From Rhodocyclaceae bacterium (lineage in GTDB: Bacteria > Pseudomonadota > Gammaproteobacteria > Burkholderiales > Rhodocyclaceae): 64,000 nucleotides of DNA. This document shows positions 3,128 to 10,584 of the stretch, in pieces. Each line of letters begins with the position of its first letter. Position 1 is the stretch's first letter. The translations under genes were made by a program, and so were the position numbers. The stretch is taken from NCBI GenBank assembly GCA_019455325.1, contig JACFMQ010000005.1:207017-271016 (forward strand). The letters are read 5' to 3'. Under the pieces are notes generated by a model that searched no databases, was not told where the DNA came from, and saw only the letters and a list, made by a program, of their open reading frames with translations.

Positions 3128-4534
3128 CACGACCTCGTAGCGGGCCAGCGTTCGCTGGCGCGCGGTATCGTGGTCGATCAACGGTAGCGGGTAGTCGTGG
3201 CCGATCGTCACGCCGCAGGCCGCCTGCTCGGCCGCTGGCATCTGCCACGGCGCGTGCAGCCAGCGCAATGGCACCGTCGCCAGCTCGGGCACGTAGTGGC
3301 GGATGAAGCGGCCTTCCGGATCGAAATTTTTCGACTGCGTCACCGGGTTGAAGATGCGGAACCACGGCTGCGCGTCGCAGCCGGTCGAGGCTGCCCACTG
3401 CCAGCCGCCGTTGTTGGCGGCGAGGTCGAAATCGAGCAGGTGCACGGCGAACCAGCGCTCGCCATGCCGCCAGTCAATGCCGAGATCCTTGCACAGAAAG
3501 GAGGCGGCGACCATGCGCAGGCGGTTGTGCATGTAGCCCGACGCGGCGAGCTGGCGCATTGCCGCGTCGACCAGCGGGTAACCGGTGCGGCCTTCGCACC
3601 AGGCGGCCAGTCCTTCCGGCCAGTCGTCCCAGACGATGCGGTCGTATTCCGGCCGGAAGCTGCGGTCGACGACGTGCGGGAAATGGTCAAGAACCATGAA
3701 GTAGAAGTCGCGCCAGACCAACTCGGCGAGCCAGCAGTCGGCACCTTCGCCGCCTTCGTGCCAGGCGTGCGCGGCGAGTTCACGCACCGAGATCGTGCCG
3801 AAGCGCAGATGCGGCGACAGGTAGGATACGCCCTTCACCGCCGGGAAATCGCGCTGTGCCCGGTAGCGCGAAAGGCGCTCGCGAAAATCGTCGAAGTTCG
3901 CGCGGGCGCCGGACATGCCCGGTACGACGCCGAGCGCGGCCAGGTCGACGGCGGCGAAGCCGATCCCGGCGAGCGGTGGCACGCCGGGCGGCAGCGCTGG
4001 CGCCGCCAGCCGACCGGTGATGCTCGGCCGCGGCGCCAGATCGTCTTCGGCAAGTCGGCGCTGCCAGGCGTTGCGGTACGGCGTGAACACGGAAAACGGC
4101 GTGCCGGCTTGCGTCAGTACGGCGCTGCCATCGAAAATCGACTGGTCGCGCAGAAGTTCGAGCCGGCGGCCGTCGGCGGTGAGTGCGGCGGCGACCGCCG
4201 CGTCGCGCGCCTTCGCCGCCGGCTCGTAGTCGCGACCGGCGAACACTATCGCCGCGCCGAGCGCTGCCGCCAGCGTCGGAATTTCGCGCACCGGGTTGCC
4301 GCGACGGACGATCAGGCCGCCGCCGCGCGCGGCGAGCGCCGCGTCGAGTTCGACCAGCGCGGCGTGGATGAAGGCGACGCGCGCGTCGGTGCGCGTCGGC
4401 AGCGCGTCGAGGATCGTCGCGTCGAAGACGAAGGCGCAGTAAACCGGACCGCCGGCGGCGAGCGCCGCCGCCAGCGGGGCGTGATCGGCGTCGCGCAGGT
4501 CGCGGCGGAACCAGACAAGGGAAGGTGCGTTCAT
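3113..4534 (-). CDS. phrB: deoxyribodipyrimidine photolyase
   Basis: This gene encodes a 473-residue class I CPD photolyase that splits UV-induced pyrimidine dimers using blue light and FAD; E. coli PhrB is of nearly the same length. The N-terminal antenna domain starts with LVWFRRDLR. The C-terminal FAD domain carries the family blocks [26 protein letters not shown] and [18 protein letters not shown]. The start at 4534 (MNAPSLVW) is chosen because it puts the Rossmann strand at the N-terminus; an upstream in-frame ATG at 4609 would overlap the divergent algH gene. The gene is a single transcription unit, convergent with pilL. Confidence 0.93.
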
Positions 4535-4595
4535 TGGCGACGGAAGGGCGGCGTCCGGTTTGTCTCGGGGGGATGCGGCGATTAAAATGCCGGAC

Positions 4596-5156
4596 ATGCA
4601 GTCCGTCAATCTGACCGATCACTTCCTCATCGCCATGCCGGCGATGGCCGACCCGTATTTCTCCGGCACCCTCATCTACGTCTGCGAGCACAACGAGCAG
4701 GGGGCGCTCGGCGTCATCGTCAACCGCCCGCTCGACATGACGCTCGCCGCGCTCTTCGAGAAGATCGAGGTGCCGCTGGAGGCGGAGGGCTTCGAGCGCA
4801 TGCCGGTCTATTTCGGCGGCCCGGTGCAGACCGACCGCGGCTTCGTGCTGCACCGCCCGGTCGGCGGCTGGCAATCGACGCTGGCGGTGAACGGCGAGAT
4901 CGCGCTGACCAGCTCGCGCGACGTGCTGCAGTCGGTCGGCCGCGAGGGCGATCCGAGCGAGATCATCGTCACCCTCGGCTATTCCGGCTGGTCGGCCGGG
5001 CAGATCGAGGACGAGCTGGCGCAGAACGCCTGGCTGACGGTGCCGGCGCAGCCGGGCATCCTCTTCGGCACGCCCTTCGAGGGGCGCCTGCCGGCGGCGA
5101 TGAGCGCGCTGGGCATCAGCTTCGCCAACCTCGCCGGGGACGCCGGACATGCCTGA
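4596..5156 (+). CDS. algH: YqgE/AlgH family protein
   Basis: A 186-residue protein of the UPF0301 (YqgE/AlgH) family, whose molecular role is not settled; in Pseudomonas it is named for an effect on alginate. The conserved opening [12 protein letters not shown] and the block [19 protein letters not shown] are present, and the length equals that of E. coli YqgE. The ATG at 4596 matches family N-termini; ATG 4587 is an alternative. It begins the operon algH-ruvX-pyrR-pyrB, a well-known betaproteobacterial order, and overlaps ruvX by 8 bases. Confidence 0.9.
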
Positions 5157-5604
5157 ACCGGCCGGCACCGTGCTGGCCTTCGACTACGGCGAGAAGCGCA
5201 TCGGCGTCGCCGTCGGCGAATCCCTGCTGAAGAGCGCACATCCGCTGACCGTCATCCACGCGCACGCCAACGACGAACGCTTCGCCGCCATCGCCGCGCT
5301 GATCGACGAATGGCGGCCGGTGCGGCTGGTGGTCGGCATGCCGACCACCGCCGACGGTGCGCCGCACGCGCTGGCCGCGCGCTGCACGCGCTTCGGCAAC
5401 CGCCTGCACGGCCGCTTCGGCCTGCCGGTGGCCTTCGCCGACGAGCGCCTGAGCTCGGCCGACGCGGCTGCGCAACTGCGCGCGGCCGGCCGCGACGCGA
5501 GAAGCGCCAAGGCGCACCTCGATGCCGTCGCCGCCCAGCTCATCCTGCAAACCCATTTCGACAGCGAACCCGAAGAGACCCATGTCCACGCGACCCCTAC
5601 CTGA
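5149..5604 (+). CDS. ruvX: Holliday junction resolvase-like protein RuvX (YqgF)
   Basis: A 151-residue RNase H-fold protein of the YqgF/RuvX family, implicated in pre-16S rRNA 5' maturation and proposed as a Holliday junction resolvase. The catalytic first strand [14 protein letters not shown], the DERLSS motif and the final [15 protein letters not shown] helix with its acidic residue are all present. The start overlaps the end of algH, so translation is probably coupled. It also overlaps the 5' end of pyrR by 23 bases. Confidence 0.93.
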
Positions 5605-6085
5605 CGCCGAGCAGCAGTGCGCGGCGCTGGCCGAGCAACTGCGGCCGCACGTCGGCCGAGAGACGGCCCTGATCGGCATCCACAGCGGCGGCGTCTGGAT
5701 CGCCGAACGCCTGCGCGAACTGCTCGGCATGGCCGACGCGCCGGGCAGCATCGACGTCTCCTTCTACCGCGACGACTTCGCCGAAAAGGGCCTGCACCCG
5801 CAGGTCAAGCCGACCTCGATCCCCTTCGAGGTCGAGGGCCGGCACATCGTGCTCGTCGACGACGTGCTCTACACCGGCCGCACGACGCGCGCCGCGTTGA
5901 ACGAGATCTTCGACTACGGCCGGCCGGCCAAGGTCGAACTGGCCGTGCTCGCCGACCGCGGCGGCCGCGAGCTGCCGGTGGCGGCGCAGTACAACACCTG
6001 GGACGTGACGCTGGCGCCCGGCGAGACGCTGGTGCTGGCGCGCGACGATGACGGGCGGCTGGCGTGGAGGCTCGACCATGAGTGA
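5582..6085 (+). CDS. pyrR: PyrR-type uracil phosphoribosyltransferase / pyr regulator
   Basis: A 167-residue member of the PyrR family. The PRPP loop [16 protein letters not shown] is intact, so uracil phosphoribosyltransferase activity is expected. In Bacillus PyrR also controls attenuation by binding pyr mRNA; in Gram-negatives a regulatory role is less clear, and I saw no obvious PyrR-binding anti-terminator here. The start [12 protein letters not shown] at 5582 follows directly on the end of ruvX. The gene overlaps pyrB by 8 bases. Confidence 0.9.
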
Positions 6086-7049
6086 CGCGCGGCGCAATCC
6101 GCAGTTGAACGCCAACGGCGAACTGACCCACCTGCTGTCCACCGAGGGTCTGCCGCGCGAGGTGCTGGTGCACATCCTCGACACCGCCGCGTCGTTCATG
6201 GAGGTCTCTGCGCGCGACGTGAAGAAGGTGCCGCTCCTGCGCGGCAAAAGCGTCTTCAACCTCTTCTTCGAGAACTCGACGCGCACGCGCACGACCTTCG
6301 AGATCGCCGCCAAGCGGCTCTCCGCCGACGTGCTCAACCTCGACATCACGCGCTCGTCGACGGCCAAGGGCGAGACCCTGCTCGACACCATCGACAACCT
6401 GTGCGCGATGCACGCCGACATGTTCGTCGTCCGCCACGCCGCCTCCGGCGCGCCCTACCTGATCGCCGAGCACCTGGCGCGCGTCGGCCGCAACGACATC
6501 CACGTGGTGAACGCCGGCGACGGCCGGCACGCGCATCCGACGCAGGGCCTGCTCGACATGTACACCATCCGCCACTACAAGGAGGCGTTCGACGGCCTGA
6601 CCGTGGCCATCGTCGGCGACATCCTGCACTCGCGCGTCGCCCGTTCCGACATCCACGCGCTGAACACGCTCGGCGCCGGCGAGGTGCGCGCCATCGGCCC
6701 GCAGACGCTGTTGCCGACGCAACTGGAAAAGCTCGGCGTGCGCGTCTTCCACGACATGGAGAAAGGGCTCGCCGGCTGCGACGTGGTGATCATGCTGCGC
6801 CTGCAGAACGAACGCATGAACGGCGCGCTGCTGCCGTCGGCCGGCGAATACTTCCGCCGCTACGGGCTGACGCCGGAGAAGCTGGCGCTGGCCAAGGCCG
6901 ACGCCATCGTCATGCATCCGGGGCCGATGAACCGCGGCGTCGAGATCGACTCCGAGGTCGCGGACGGGCCGCAGGCGGTGATCCTGCCGCAGGTCACCTT
7001 CGGCATCGCCGTGCGCATGGCGGTGATGAGCATCGTCGCGGGGAACTGA
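6078..7049 (+). CDS. pyrB: aspartate carbamoyltransferase catalytic chain
   Basis: A 323-residue ATCase that joins carbamoyl phosphate and aspartate in the second step of pyrimidine synthesis. The carbamoyl-phosphate motif [13 protein letters not shown], the block [12 protein letters not shown] and the C-terminal [12 protein letters not shown] are present. Length is in the range of the class A (Pseudomonas-type) ATCases that assemble with PyrC'. The start at 6078 overlaps pyrR. Its stop codon lies one base before the ATG of an inserted restriction endonuclease gene, where pyrC' would normally follow. Confidence 0.96.
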
Positions 7050-7050
7050 G

Positions 7051-7641
7051 ATGGGTACGGAACTTCTCCCCGATGTCATTCTCGATCACTACGAAGTTCA
7101 TGAGTGGAAGCATGCAACGGCAATCCTTGCCCAGGATTTTCCGGGTGAATGGGAAGACATCATAGATGTACTTTCTGCGTTTCGATTGCATCGAAGCTGG
7201 ATCGAAGTTGGCGGAAAGAATAAATCTGATGTATCGAAGCGGATCGATTCCGAGTTCTACGCACGTGGTTGGGAGGAGAAGCAGTTCGAAACATCTATCG
7301 TTGTAGACGGCCACAAGATCGAGTCGCCGACACACAAAGTAGACTGCTTCAAGAACCGCGTTGCTCTTGAAATCGAATGGAACAACAAGGATCCCTTTTA
7401 CGATCGTGATCTCAATAATTTCCGCCTGCTTTTCGATCTGCGTGTCGCAAGCGTCGGCGTTATCATCACTCGCTGTGACGAGTTACAAAGTGTTTTCAAC
7501 GAACTTGGGCGCGGGTCGAGTTTTGGTAACTCTACGACGCACATGGGGAAATTGCTCCCTCGAATAAACGGCGGTAGTGGCGGTGGTTGTCCACTGCTGG
7601 TGTTTGGTATTACCCGGAGGCTATATGACGAAAACAAGTGA
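7051..7641 (+). CDS. type II restriction endonuclease, BglII/BstYI-like
   Basis: A 196-residue protein resembling the BglII/BstYI family of type II endonucleases. The candidate catalytic set is D98, E107 and E109 in VALEIEWNNKD, with spacings of 9 and 2 that match what I recall for BglII (D84, E93, Q95). The EWNNKDPFYDRDLNNFRLLFD segment is typical of the family. GC content is about 50% against about 70% around it, and codon use differs, indicating transfer. The start codon comes one base after the pyrB stop, with a GGGGA ribosome site inside pyrB. It overlaps the methyltransferase gene by 17 bases. Cleavage specificity is not determinable; a GATC-centred site would be expected from the family (inference). 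Confidence 0.78.
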   Translation: MGTELLPDVILDHYEVHEWKHATAILAQDFPGEWEDIIDVLSAFRLHRSWIEVGGKNKSDVSKRIDSEFYARGWEEKQFETSIVVDGHKIESPTHKVDCFKNRVALEIEWNNKDPFYDRDLNNFRLLFDLRVASVGVIITRCDELQSVFNELGRGSSFGNSTTHMGKLLPRINGGSGGGCPLLVFGITRRLYDENK

Positions 7642-8344
7642 CGCGGTGTTGGCCCGGGCTACAAGCGAATTGATCGAAGTGGCTAATGGCCAGAGATTCT
7701 CGACCATTCTGGCCGATCCTCCGTGGCGATTTCAAAACCGCACCGGCAAGATGGCTCCGGAGCACAAGAGGTTGGCGCGTTACGGAACCATGATTACCGA
7801 CGATATCTGCACGTTACCCGTCGAGTCTATCTCGGCAGAAACGGCGCATCTCTATCTCTGGGTCCCTAATGCTCTGTTGCCGGACGGATTGGAGGTCATG
7901 AGGCGGTGGGGCTTTCAGTACAAAACCAATATCGTCTGGAACAAGGTTCGTAAGGACGGAGGGCCGGACGGGCGAGGCGTCGGCTTCTATTTTCGCAACA
8001 CGACTGAACTGCTGTTGTTCGGTACTCGTGGGAAAAACGCCCGAACGTTGGCACCTGGTCGCAGGCAGGTCAATGTCTTGTGCACGATGAAGCGGGAACA
8101 TTCCCGCAAGCCGGACGAGGCATACGATTTGATTGAGCAATGCAGTTGGGGACCGTTCCTCGAAATGTTCGCCCGAGGTTCGCGTGAAGGCTGGACGACA
8201 TGGGGAAATCAGGCACAAGGCTATTACCCGGACTGGCCGACTTACTCGAATCACTCGCAACAAGCTGCCGCCATTCCGCCAATAGCTGATGAAAATCAGC
8301 AGCGACTATTGTGCAGACAAGCTAAGTACGTCATAGAGACATGA
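7625..8344 (+). CDS. MT-A70 family DNA adenine methyltransferase
   Basis: A 239-residue MT-A70-type methyltransferase with the catalytic DPPW motif at residues 31-34 (ILADPPWRFQN). Such enzymes methylate adenine N6 and often form the modification half of a restriction pair. The start at 7625 has a good GGAGG site and overlaps the endonuclease gene, so the two form an R-M cassette with R first. The stop overlaps the ATG of pyrC' (ATGA at 8341-8344), so pyrC' translation is probably coupled to this gene. GC content is clearly lower than that of the neighbours, as in the endonuclease gene. An RNA methyltransferase is possible but unlikely in this setting. Confidence 0.82.
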   Translation: MTKTSDAVLARATSELIEVANGQRFSTILADPPWRFQNRTGKMAPEHKRLARYGTMITDDICTLPVESISAETAHLYLWVPNALLPDGLEVMRRWGFQYKTNIVWNKVRKDGGPDGRGVGFYFRNTTELLLFGTRGKNARTLAPGRRQVNVLCTMKREHSRKPDEAYDLIEQCSWGPFLEMFARGSREGWTTWGNQAQGYYPDWPTYSNHSQQAAAIPPIADENQQRLLCRQAKYVIET

Positions 8345-9588
8345 AAATCTCCATCAAGAACGGCCGCCTGATCGACCCGAAGCACGGCGTCGACGCCCGC
8401 CTCGACCTGCACCTTGCCGACGGCCGCGTCGCCGCCGTCGGCGGCGCGCCGGACGGCTTCGCCGACGCGGCCGTGATCGACGCCGCCGGCTGCGTCGTCT
8501 GCCCGGGCCTGGTCGACCTGGCGGCACGCCTGCCCGGCCTCGAAAGCGAGCTTGCCGCCGCCGTCGCCGGCGGCGTCACGTCGCTGGCCTGTCCGCCCGA
8601 CGCCCGGCCGCCGCTCGACGCGCCGGGCCTCGTCGAACGCCTGGTCGGCCGCGCCGAGGATGCGGGGCTGGCCCGCGTGCTGCCGGTCGGCGCGCTCACC
8701 GCGCGCCTCGCCGGCGAGGCGCTGGCCGAGTTCGACGGCCTGACGCGCGCCGGCTGCGTCGCCTTCTCGCAGGGCGGCGCGGCGCCGGTCGATACGCAGG
8801 TGCTGCTGCGCGCCATGCAGTACGCCGCCACCTTCGGCCACGCCGTCTGGCTCCGGCCGCAGGACAGGCACCTCGTCGGCGAGGGCGTGGCCCACGACGG
8901 CGAGGTCGCCGCCCGCCTCGGCCTGCCGGGCATTCCCGCCGCCGCCGAGACGGTGGCGATCGCCGCCGCGCTCGAACTGGCGCGGGCCACCGGCGTCCGC
9001 CTGCACCTCATGCGCCTGTCCACCGCCGGCGGCGTCGCCCTGGTCCGCCGCGCGCGCGCCGAGGGCCTCGCCGTCACCTGCGACGCGGGCGTGCATCACC
9101 TGCACCTCACCGAGGCGGACATCGGCTTCTTCGACAGCGACGCCCGCTTCGACCCGCCGCTGCGCGAAGCGCGCGACCGCGAGGCGCTTTCGGCGGCCGC
9201 CGCCGAGGGCCTGCTGGCGATCTGCTCCGACCACACGCCGATCGACGAGGACGGCAAGCAGTTGCCGTTCGGCGAGGCCGAGGCCGGCGCCAGCGGCCTC
9301 GAACTGCTGCTGCCGCTGACGCTGAAATGGGCGGAGTCGGCGGGCGTGCCGCTGCCGGCGGCGCTCGCCCGCATCACCTGCGATCCGGCGGCGATCCTCG
9401 GCGTTGCCGGCGGCGAGCTGGCGGCCGGTGCGCCGGCCGACGTCTGCGTCTTCGATGCGCAGGCGACCTGGCGCGTCGGCGCCGACACGCTGCGGAGCGA
9501 GGGCAAGAACACCCCGTTCCTGGGCCGCGAGGTGCAGGGCCGCGTGCGCGCGACCGTGGTCGGCGGCCGCGTCGTCTTCGGCGGCTGA
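8341..9588 (+). CDS. pyrC': PyrC', dihydroorotase-like non-catalytic subunit of ATCase
   Basis: A 415-residue amidohydrolase-fold protein related to type I dihydroorotase. The metal-binding DxHxH motif expected after PGLVD is replaced by PGLVDLAARLPG, and the later DHAPH block reads SDHTPI, so the histidine ligands are missing. This matches the inactive PyrC' (PyrX) of Pseudomonas, which holds PyrB in a dodecamer and is needed for ATCase stability. A true pyrC must therefore exist elsewhere in the genome. The gene is high-GC like pyrB but is separated from it by the R-M cassette; its start overlaps the methyltransferase stop, and no strong ribosome site precedes it. Confidence 0.88.
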   Translation: MKISIKNGRLIDPKHGVDARLDLHLADGRVAAVGGAPDGFADAAVIDAAGCVVCPGLVDLAARLPGLESELAAAVAGGVTSLACPPDARPPLDAPGLVERLVGRAEDAGLARVLPVGALTARLAGEALAEFDGLTRAGCVAFSQGGAAPVDTQVLLRAMQYAATFGHAVWLRPQDRHLVGEGVAHDGEVAARLGLPGIPAAAETVAIAAALELARATGVRLHLMRLSTAGGVALVRRARAEGLAVTCDAGVHHLHLTEADIGFFDSDARFDPPLREARDREALSAAAAEGLLAICSDHTPIDEDGKQLPFGEAEAGASGLELLLPLTLKWAESAGVPLPAALARITCDPAAILGVAGGELAAGAPADVCVFDAQATWRVGADTLRSEGKNTPFLGREVQGRVRATVVGGRVVFGG

Positions 9589-9605
9589 GAGCGTCGCACA
9601 AACGC

Positions 9606-9634
9606 AAACGGGCGACCCGCGGGTCGCCCGTTTT
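9606..9634. terminator. bidirectional terminator after pyrC' and the DHH gene
   Basis: A 13-bp perfect stem (aaacgggcgaccc / gggtcgcccgttt) closes on a 2-base gc loop and ends in a T-run on both strands. It lies between the convergent pyrC' and the DHH phosphoesterase gene. Confidence 0.88.
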
Positions 9635-9651
9635 GCTTCCGCGCGGCTTCT

Positions 9652-10584
9652 TCAGCCGTCGGCGTTGATCTTCGTGATCAGCGTCTGCAGCGTCTCAGCC
9701 GCCTTGTCGTTGTCCACCTGGCAGGTGCCGGCCGCCTGATGGCCGCCGCCGCCGTACTGCAGCATCAGCTCGCCGACGTTCGTCCTGCTGCCGCGGTCGA
9801 GGATCGACTTGCCGGTGGCGAACACCGTGTTCTGCTTCTGCACGCCCCACAGCACGTGGATCGAGATGTTGGTCTGCGGGAACAGCGCGTAGATCATGAA
9901 GCGGTTGGTCGCCCAGATCGTCTCCTCGTCGCGCAGGTCGAGCACGACCAGGTTCCTGTGCACCGTGGCGCAGCGCAGGAGCTGTTCCCTGGCCTTCTCC
10001 GCGTGCTCGAAGTACAGCTCGACGCGTTCCTTGACGTCGGGCAGCGCCAGGATTTCGTCGATGCCGTGGTTCCGGCAGTACTTGATGAGATCCATCATCA
10101 GCGTGTAGTTGCTGATGCGGAACTCGCGGAAGCGGCCCAGGCCGGTGCGCGCGTCCATCAGGTAGTTGAGCAGCACCCAGCCCTGAGGGTCGAGGATCTC
10201 GTCGCGCGTGAACTGCGCCGAGTCGGCCTTGTCCACGGCCACCATCATGTCGTCGGCGATGTTCGGGAAAGTCTTCTTGCCGCCGTAGTAGTCGTAGACG
10301 ACGCGCGCCGCCGACGGCGCCCTGGCGTCGATGACGTGATTCTTGCGCTCGCCGGTGTTGCGCAGCGTCTCCGACTCGTGGTGGTCGAAGGCCAGGTGCG
10401 CGCCCGGCACGTAGGGCAGGTTGGTGGTGATGTCGCGCGGACCGATGTCGATCTTGCCGTCCTGCATGTCCTTCGGATGGACGAACTTGATGTCGTCGAT
10501 CAGGTCGAGTTCGTTGAGCAGCACGGCGCAGACCAGGCCGTCGAAGTCGCTGCGCGTGACCAAGCGGAATTTCTGTTCGCTCAT
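9652..10584 (-). CDS. DHH family phosphoesterase (exopolyphosphatase-related)
   Basis: A 310-residue DHH/DHHA1 protein. The N-terminal metal site shows SDFDG and FDHHES, and the C-terminal DHHA1 domain carries the GGGGHQAAG signature. Members of this superfamily hydrolyse phosphoesters such as nanoRNA, cyclic dinucleotides or polyphosphate; the substrate here cannot be told from sequence alone. It follows yggU on the same strand after 62 bases, so it may be the last gene of the yggS-proC-yggT-yggU unit, and it is closed by the terminator at 9606-9634. Confidence 0.82.
   Translation of the reverse strand: MSEQKFRLVTRSDFDGLVCAVLLNELDLIDDIKFVHPKDMQDGKIDIGPRDITTNLPYVPGAHLAFDHHESETLRNTGERKNHVIDARAPSAARVVYDYYGGKKTFPNIADDMMVAVDKADSAQFTRDEILDPQGWVLLNYLMDARTGLGRFREFRISNYTLMMDLIKYCRNHGIDEILALPDVKERVELYFEHAEKAREQLLRCATVHRNLVVLDLRDEETIWATNRFMIYALFPQTNISIHVLWGVQKQNTVFATGKSILDRGSRTNVGELMLQYGGGGHQAAGTCQVDNDKAAETLQTLITKINADG

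Follow-up and report, generated by a model that had tools for sequence, protein, structure and literature searches.

The window, a stretch of 64,000 nt with a GC content of 70%, carries two genes between pyrB and pyrC' on the forward strand: a restriction endonuclease gene of the BglII family (R, 7051-7641) and a DNA methyltransferase gene of the MT-A70 family (M, 7625-8344), which overlap each other by 17 nt. The operon around them runs on the same strand. It is headed by an algH/yqgE-like gene (4596-5156; PF02622, E = 1e-48) and continues with a ruvX/yqgF-like gene (5149-5604; PF03652, E = 1.3e-40), a phosphoribosyltransferase gene that overlaps pyrB (5582-6085; PF00156, E = 6e-17) and that we take to be pyrR from its position and from general knowledge, pyrB itself, encoding aspartate carbamoyltransferase (6078-7049; PF02729 and PF00185), and, past the cassette, the dihydroorotase-like pyrC' (8341-9588; PF07969 and PF01979). 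The cassette fits closely at both ends. The pyrB stop codon TGA (7047-7049) is followed by one base and then by the ATG of R at 7051, giving the left junction TGA-G-ATGG (7047-7054), and the stop codon of M, read from the sequence, overlaps the start of pyrC' as ATGA (8341-8344). An earlier, sequence-only reading of this DNA had the coordinates of both genes and both tight joins right. It had also reported no transposase, integrase or flanking repeats, and this was borne out: R and M are the sole genes between pyrB and pyrC' in the window, with no recombinase gene there, and no pair among the repeats listed for 6700-8700 brackets the insert.

A GGAGG lies 4 bases ahead of the ATG of M. A sigma-70-type scan of positions 4400-9700 gave a single promoter-like site on the forward strand, at 4560-4588 and thus upstream of the operon, and none inside the cassette, which is weak evidence either way. 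Towards the end of R, at 7578-7599, the same scan placed a weak forward-strand site resembling a terminator; this too is weak evidence, with six such sites seen against 3.7 expected by chance. The sequence-only reading also predicted that R and M expression would track pyrimidine demand and that PyrC' supply would hinge on translation through the cassette, and the sequence would fit both predictions.

The identification of the pair as a restriction-modification (R-M) system, also proposed by the sequence-only reading, is upheld by two full-profile matches. R matches PF09195 (Endonuc-BglII) over positions 1-163 of 163 (E = 2.2e-48), and M, which carries an ADPPW motif, matches PF05063 (MT-A70) over positions 1-172 of 172 (E = 9.3e-32) and is classed by PADLOC as a Type II methyltransferase (MTase_II, 9.4e-87). 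Residues D98, E107 and E109 of R, to which we assign a presumed catalytic role, align with D, E and Q of a BstYI-like endonuclease from genome G789. All three are invariant in 12 close R homologues; eight divergent ones keep D98 and E109 without exception and have E or D at position 107. We infer that the two genes make up a Type II-like R-M system. Other resources added little: NCBIfam gave no match for either protein at E≤0.1, the best PHROGs value for R was only 0.07, phmmer against solved chains returned none for R at E≤0.1, and a PDB sequence search with R alone or an R profile found nothing credible. The AlphaFold model of R is poor, with a mean pLDDT of 62.9 and 67 of 196 residues below 50.

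By composition the pair looks foreign. GC content is 0.489 in R and 0.546 in M (about 50% in the sequence-only reading), against 0.680 in pyrB and 0.770 in pyrC', and GC3 is 0.53 in R and 0.63 in M, where pyrR, pyrB and pyrC' have 0.93-0.96. Under a codon model trained on the called genes of the window, R and M both score -0.48 per codon, while the lowest score among the 52 called genes longer than 450 nt is 0.25. A gene caller with a universal codon prior recovers the pyr genes and misses both R and M, which were placed by homology.

R and M each have one match in their own genome, and pyrC' is present there as a single copy (E≤0.001). The HxH motif is absent after LVD in the PyrC' protein, a criterion that we take to mark an inactive dihydroorotase-like chain, and on this account PyrC' is probably an inactive partner chain. 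In Pseudomonas aeruginosa ATCase, the part of the source available to us describes a pyrB chain that is inactive without its pseudo-dihydroorotase partner and regains activity in a 1:1 mixture (PMC7053772).

Comparison with relatives lacking the cassette, which the sequence-only reading had proposed, shows an empty junction in all four same-genus genomes that could be read (G001, G002, G005 and G006), where pyrC' starts 1-2 nt past the pyrB stop; the other two, G003 and G004, gave no close pyrB match in incomplete assemblies. PyrB of the window is 94-95% identical in amino acids to that of G001. The junction of G002 and G006 is GGGGAACTGAGATGG, identical to the window as far as the start of R, so R starts exactly where pyrC' starts in those two genomes. 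The PyrC' N-terminus is MKISIKNGR in the window and MTTQKIS, MATDKIS, MASDKIS or MEKIS in the congeners; because of this difference, the pyrC' start was probably altered at the insertion event. Window pyrB and pyrC' are no less identical to the four congeners near the junction than further away, so a flank, if one was imported at all, is very short.

The wider sample of relatives comprised 60 genomes. An orthologous pyrB was read in 55 of them (29 + 26), and pyrC' was also in view in 54; the remaining genome (G054; L198, L280) has pyrB and no pyrC' match within 11.5 kb. In 53 of the 54 the two genes are at most 171 nt apart, too little for R or M, and the one exception, G030, has an M there. 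The earlier reading would have been in difficulty had all relatives shown the same two genes here with matching GC, and these counts are the opposite of that. Counting the window's own genome, homologues of R turned up in 4 of 61 relatives and in 17 of the 395 genomes searched in the family. The 171-nt spacer itself, in G007 (L020), contains a short open frame running from just past the pyrB stop to the pyrC' start, and it resembles a simple repeated element.

Restriction or modification genes of at least four kinds nevertheless occupy the pyrB/pyrC' junction in eight genomes from four genera and two families. M was searched for in 395 family genomes (43 matches, the surroundings of 40 read), in 399 genomes of the order (14, all read), in the 22 genomes of the family of G766 (5, all read) and in 369 genomes of the class (9 including the window, all read); short M matches in G085, G380 and G405 and second M copies in other genomes fall partly outside what was read. 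M stands at the junction in six genomes, namely the window (G000), G030, G114, G213, G766 and G790. In G030, the sole occupied genome among the 54 relatives, an MT-A70 gene is alone at the junction, and in G114 M is likewise alone. G766 has the closest R that we found, 80% identical to that of the window, with an M at 70%. G790, a congener of G766, combines M with a divergent BglII-type R that is 59% identical to the R of G213 and 41% to that of the window. G213 itself holds an R of a second type (type B), M and a third gene, a BstYI relative cut down to 161 aa (6e-19 to BstYI; 32% to the gene in G789). The two remaining junctions hold other systems: in G789 an N6_N4 methylase (PF01555, 1.1e-49) is followed by an R that matches BstYI over its full length (1-203, E = 9.2e-94), and G688 has a DpnI-like gene in pieces (PF06044, DpnI, 8e-34; PF17726, DpnI_C, 8e-24; 1.1e-23 to DpnI), interrupted by N in the record. 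G789 and G790 have an estimated contamination of 7%, so that their contigs, though carrying pyrB, are less sure.

G766, G790, G789 and G688 all belong to genus g139, in which eight genomes were read: these four are occupied, each by a different system, and four are empty. The genus was examined because G766 had turned up there, and the M search was what led to G213, G114, G766 and G790, so these occupancy rates are biased upwards. Outside g139 the site is mostly empty, with one of 54 relatives not chosen by M or R occupied; in the genus of G213, the sister sites in G025 and G109 are empty. The last cassette stop overlaps the pyrC' start in six of the eight occupied junctions (G000, G766, G213, G789, G030 and G114). 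Such an overlap is common and not required, since spacers of 14 nt in G790 and 27 nt in G688 stand ahead of pyrC' instead.

Beyond this junction the R-M family is widely distributed: among 84,980 species genomes scanned, at least 562 confirmed R relatives came to light, and the best 80 were retained. Among these 80, M is in tandem with R in 72, convergent in four (L063, L087, L108 and L130), an arrangement that alters how the genes could be coupled, and not found in four, three of which end within about 130 nt past R. The pair has a lower GC than its flanks in 70 of the 80. A check of 138 loci (L036-L173) for pyr genes returned G213 once more (as L039) and, in L125, a 35% PyrB-like match about 5.5 kb from R and not adjoining it. 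R relatives are also found on 39 viral contigs, on 37 of which M lies no more than 1.5 kb away, and viruses are a possible vehicle of the pair.

Several individual loci are of interest in their own right. In an Azonexaceae MAG (L120 / L002), the same R-M family lies between two genes that we take from their translations to be metH-like and murB-like, and the called start of the downstream gene falls over the end of M in a nearly seamless fit. In two further MAGs (L104 and L124), a gene of 981/982 codons, which by eye resembles a topoisomerase in L104, precedes the pair by 60 and 52 nt, a possible second shared site. Copies of R or M in L240 (G086) and L239 (G384) look broken, with an internal stop or split matches, and the pair may be decaying in some lineages. 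In genus g19, 16 loci (L206, L208, L211-L213, L216, L218, L219, L221 and L223-L229) have close relatives of M and no R match in the locus, with a 753-nt called gene nearby in 11 of the 16; this M is probably a solitary methyltransferase kept vertically.

The reading that we favor, with a probability of roughly 60%, is that compact restriction cassettes repeatedly land and are exchanged at the pyrB/pyrC' junction in this order, the window holding one allele. The sequence-only reading had proposed an insertion into the pyr operon. That much stands, with a foreign-looking pair that none of the readable congeners has; the insertion is no isolated event, however, because other restriction genes occupy the same junction in other genera and eight genomes share it. 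Under this recurrent-site reading, cassettes would arrive by horizontal transfer and enter by recombination, either through the conserved pyrB and pyrC' flanks of a donor already occupied there or, for a first entry, by short homology around the start and stop codons; among the occupied junctions found, no donor-recipient pair with shared flanks was seen. Most random inserts would be lost, and the survivors would be those on the same strand with almost no gaps, because PyrC' must be made together with PyrB, if the P. aeruginosa rule holds here, and inserts that block pyrC' would be eliminated. Translation of R would then begin in the initiation context used by pyrC' in G002 and G006, and pyrC' would be translated mainly by ribosomes finishing M, via the overlap. 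The pair would restrict unmodified DNA and, like other Type II R-M systems, would persist partly because its loss does harm.

A contrasting history is a single ancestral insertion followed by many losses and by replacement of R in place. The constancy of the junction fits it, and so do the identities: the M genes at the site are 67-73% identical in five pairs and thus closer to one another than the R types A (window, G766) and B (G213, G790), which are 34-41% identical in the pairs compared, and the M genes of g25, with a host-like GC of 0.66-0.69, may be old. The empty junctions speak against it, in all four readable congeners, in G025 and G109 and in half of the g139 genomes, as do the unrelated systems in G789 and G688. 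Boundaries also vary, the offset of the R start from the end of pyrB being -4, 0, 1 or 2 nt, and the M of G031, located elsewhere, is nearer to the window M (78%) than any M at the site. The low GC of the cassettes in the window, G213, G766 and G790 points to recent arrival; those in G030 and G114 have a host-like GC, so that cassette ages may differ between sites. In trees of 108 R and 133 M rows, from which duplicate loci and short proteins had been dropped, the four pyr-site R genes need at least three site changes and the six pyr-site M genes likewise need three; the trees are weakly supported (13 of 103 and 16 of 127 inner branches starred), and such counts are blind to gain versus loss. 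The nearest neighbor of the G766 R is the window R, whereas that of the G766 M is the M of G790, a discrepancy suggesting that R and M may have been shuffled within the site. Taken together, we regard one old insertion as rather unlikely.

At the other extreme, the window could hold a single chance illegitimate insertion, the other occupied sites being coincidence. The insert is indeed missing from the readable congeners, and R starts at a short GATGG match to the pyrC' start of two of them, but eight genomes in four genera have this junction in common. If a restriction gene is assumed to occupy 0.3-3% of junctions, four or more occupied genomes out of eight in g139 has a probability of 6e-9 to 5e-5, in a genus that was not blindly chosen, and coincidence seems to us very improbable. 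We give equally scant credence to a dedicated integrase, transposase or phage that targets the junction: phages could carry the pair, to judge from the viral contigs, but the window site has no recombinase or bracketing repeats, and different cassettes with different ends share one place. A further proposal is that the position was selected for regulation, a coupling of restriction to pyrimidine synthesis being useful to the cell or to the cassette. The operon position, the overlaps and the promoter scan of the cassette agree with it, but the family lies mostly elsewhere. Among the best 80 of at least 562 R loci, only four have co-directional, well-scored genes within 60 nt on both sides (a count based on the gene caller), and in none does pyrB or pyrC' stand beside R, which leaves regulatory selection a long shot.

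Beyond the recurrent site itself, a more specific possibility is that the junction is specialised for kin that cut at GATC (the BglII, BstYI and DpnI types) across families of one order, and that its cassettes take over the pyrC' start, so that synthesis of the second subunit of an essential enzyme depends on ribosomes finishing the cassette. We offer this tentatively, as something that may be so and probably is not; if true, a host whose cassette was lost or broken would be left without ATCase, so that addiction would be added to restriction. BglII, BstYI and DpnI all cut GATC-containing sites, and kinship with BglII and BstYI leads us to guess that the target of the window system contains GATC as well.

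If the recurrent-site reading is correct, restriction cassettes have entered the middle of an operon repeatedly and almost seamlessly, between genes whose two products probably must assemble together. Different restriction systems sharing one place make this a small, bounded natural experiment on R-M movement without mobility genes, which also bears on how foreign genes survive in biosynthetic operons and on whether translation coupling by the host retains them. The literature searched, which omits most subscription journals, gave no description of a restriction site at pyrB/pyrC'.

The components have known relatives. The window R resembles the BglII/BstYI family in its full-profile match to PF09195 and in the residues kept at catalytic positions, and the G789 endonuclease at the same junction matches BstYI along its whole length. 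Unlike BglII and BstYI, whose partners are N4-cytosine methylases, the window R is paired with an MT-A70 methylase. The DpnI and DpnII systems of Streptococcus pneumoniae occupy the same locus, and we know of no biosynthetic operon involved there. The dpn locus resembles the pyrB/pyrC' junction in holding alternative restriction systems of related DNA target in one place, with a DpnI-like gene at the G688 junction, and differs in that its variation lies within one species; as far as the accessible part of the source goes, a strain carries either DpnI or DpnII, and replacement of dpnI by dpnII has been made (PMC3573125).

Fixed places with changing defence content are also known from a variable locus of Streptococcus suis (PMC5398294) and from core defence hotspots of P. 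aeruginosa (PMC10250203); compared by their descriptions, in the portions of these papers at hand, nothing puts those sites inside an operon for enzyme subunits. For enterobacteria, the available excerpt describes defence hotspots between conserved genes (PMC12707154). Movement of R-M systems linked to insertion sequences, and their insertion with target duplications, are documented in the available parts of two further sources (PMC3031569, PMC3874152). The window site has neither the recombinase gene nor the bracketing repeats of a transposon or integrative element.

The closest parallel is pheS/pheT of Neisseria, where, in the sections of the sources available to us, R-M cassettes differ between strains (PMC3082526, PMC7973814) and NmeDI lies between pheS and pheT (PMC7973814). 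As in N. meningitidis, differing restriction cassettes stand between the genes for two subunits of one enzyme, and no mobility genes are seen at pyrB/pyrC'. A minimal mobile element is described, in the same limited text, as different whole-gene cassettes between two conserved genes, taken in by homologous recombination (PMC3082526). Different cassettes are what we find at pyrB/pyrC', between species rather than strains. Homologous exchange in the flanks may occur there too; no recombination tract was seen in the window pyrB or pyrC' against four congeners. The genes and the clade are also different, the variation extends across species, genera and families, and start/stop overlaps mark most of the occupied pyrB/pyrC' junctions. 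With these differences, our best reading by analogy is that pyrB/pyrC' would be an exchange site resembling Neisseria pheS/pheT, at which only inserts that leave pyrC' translated survive.
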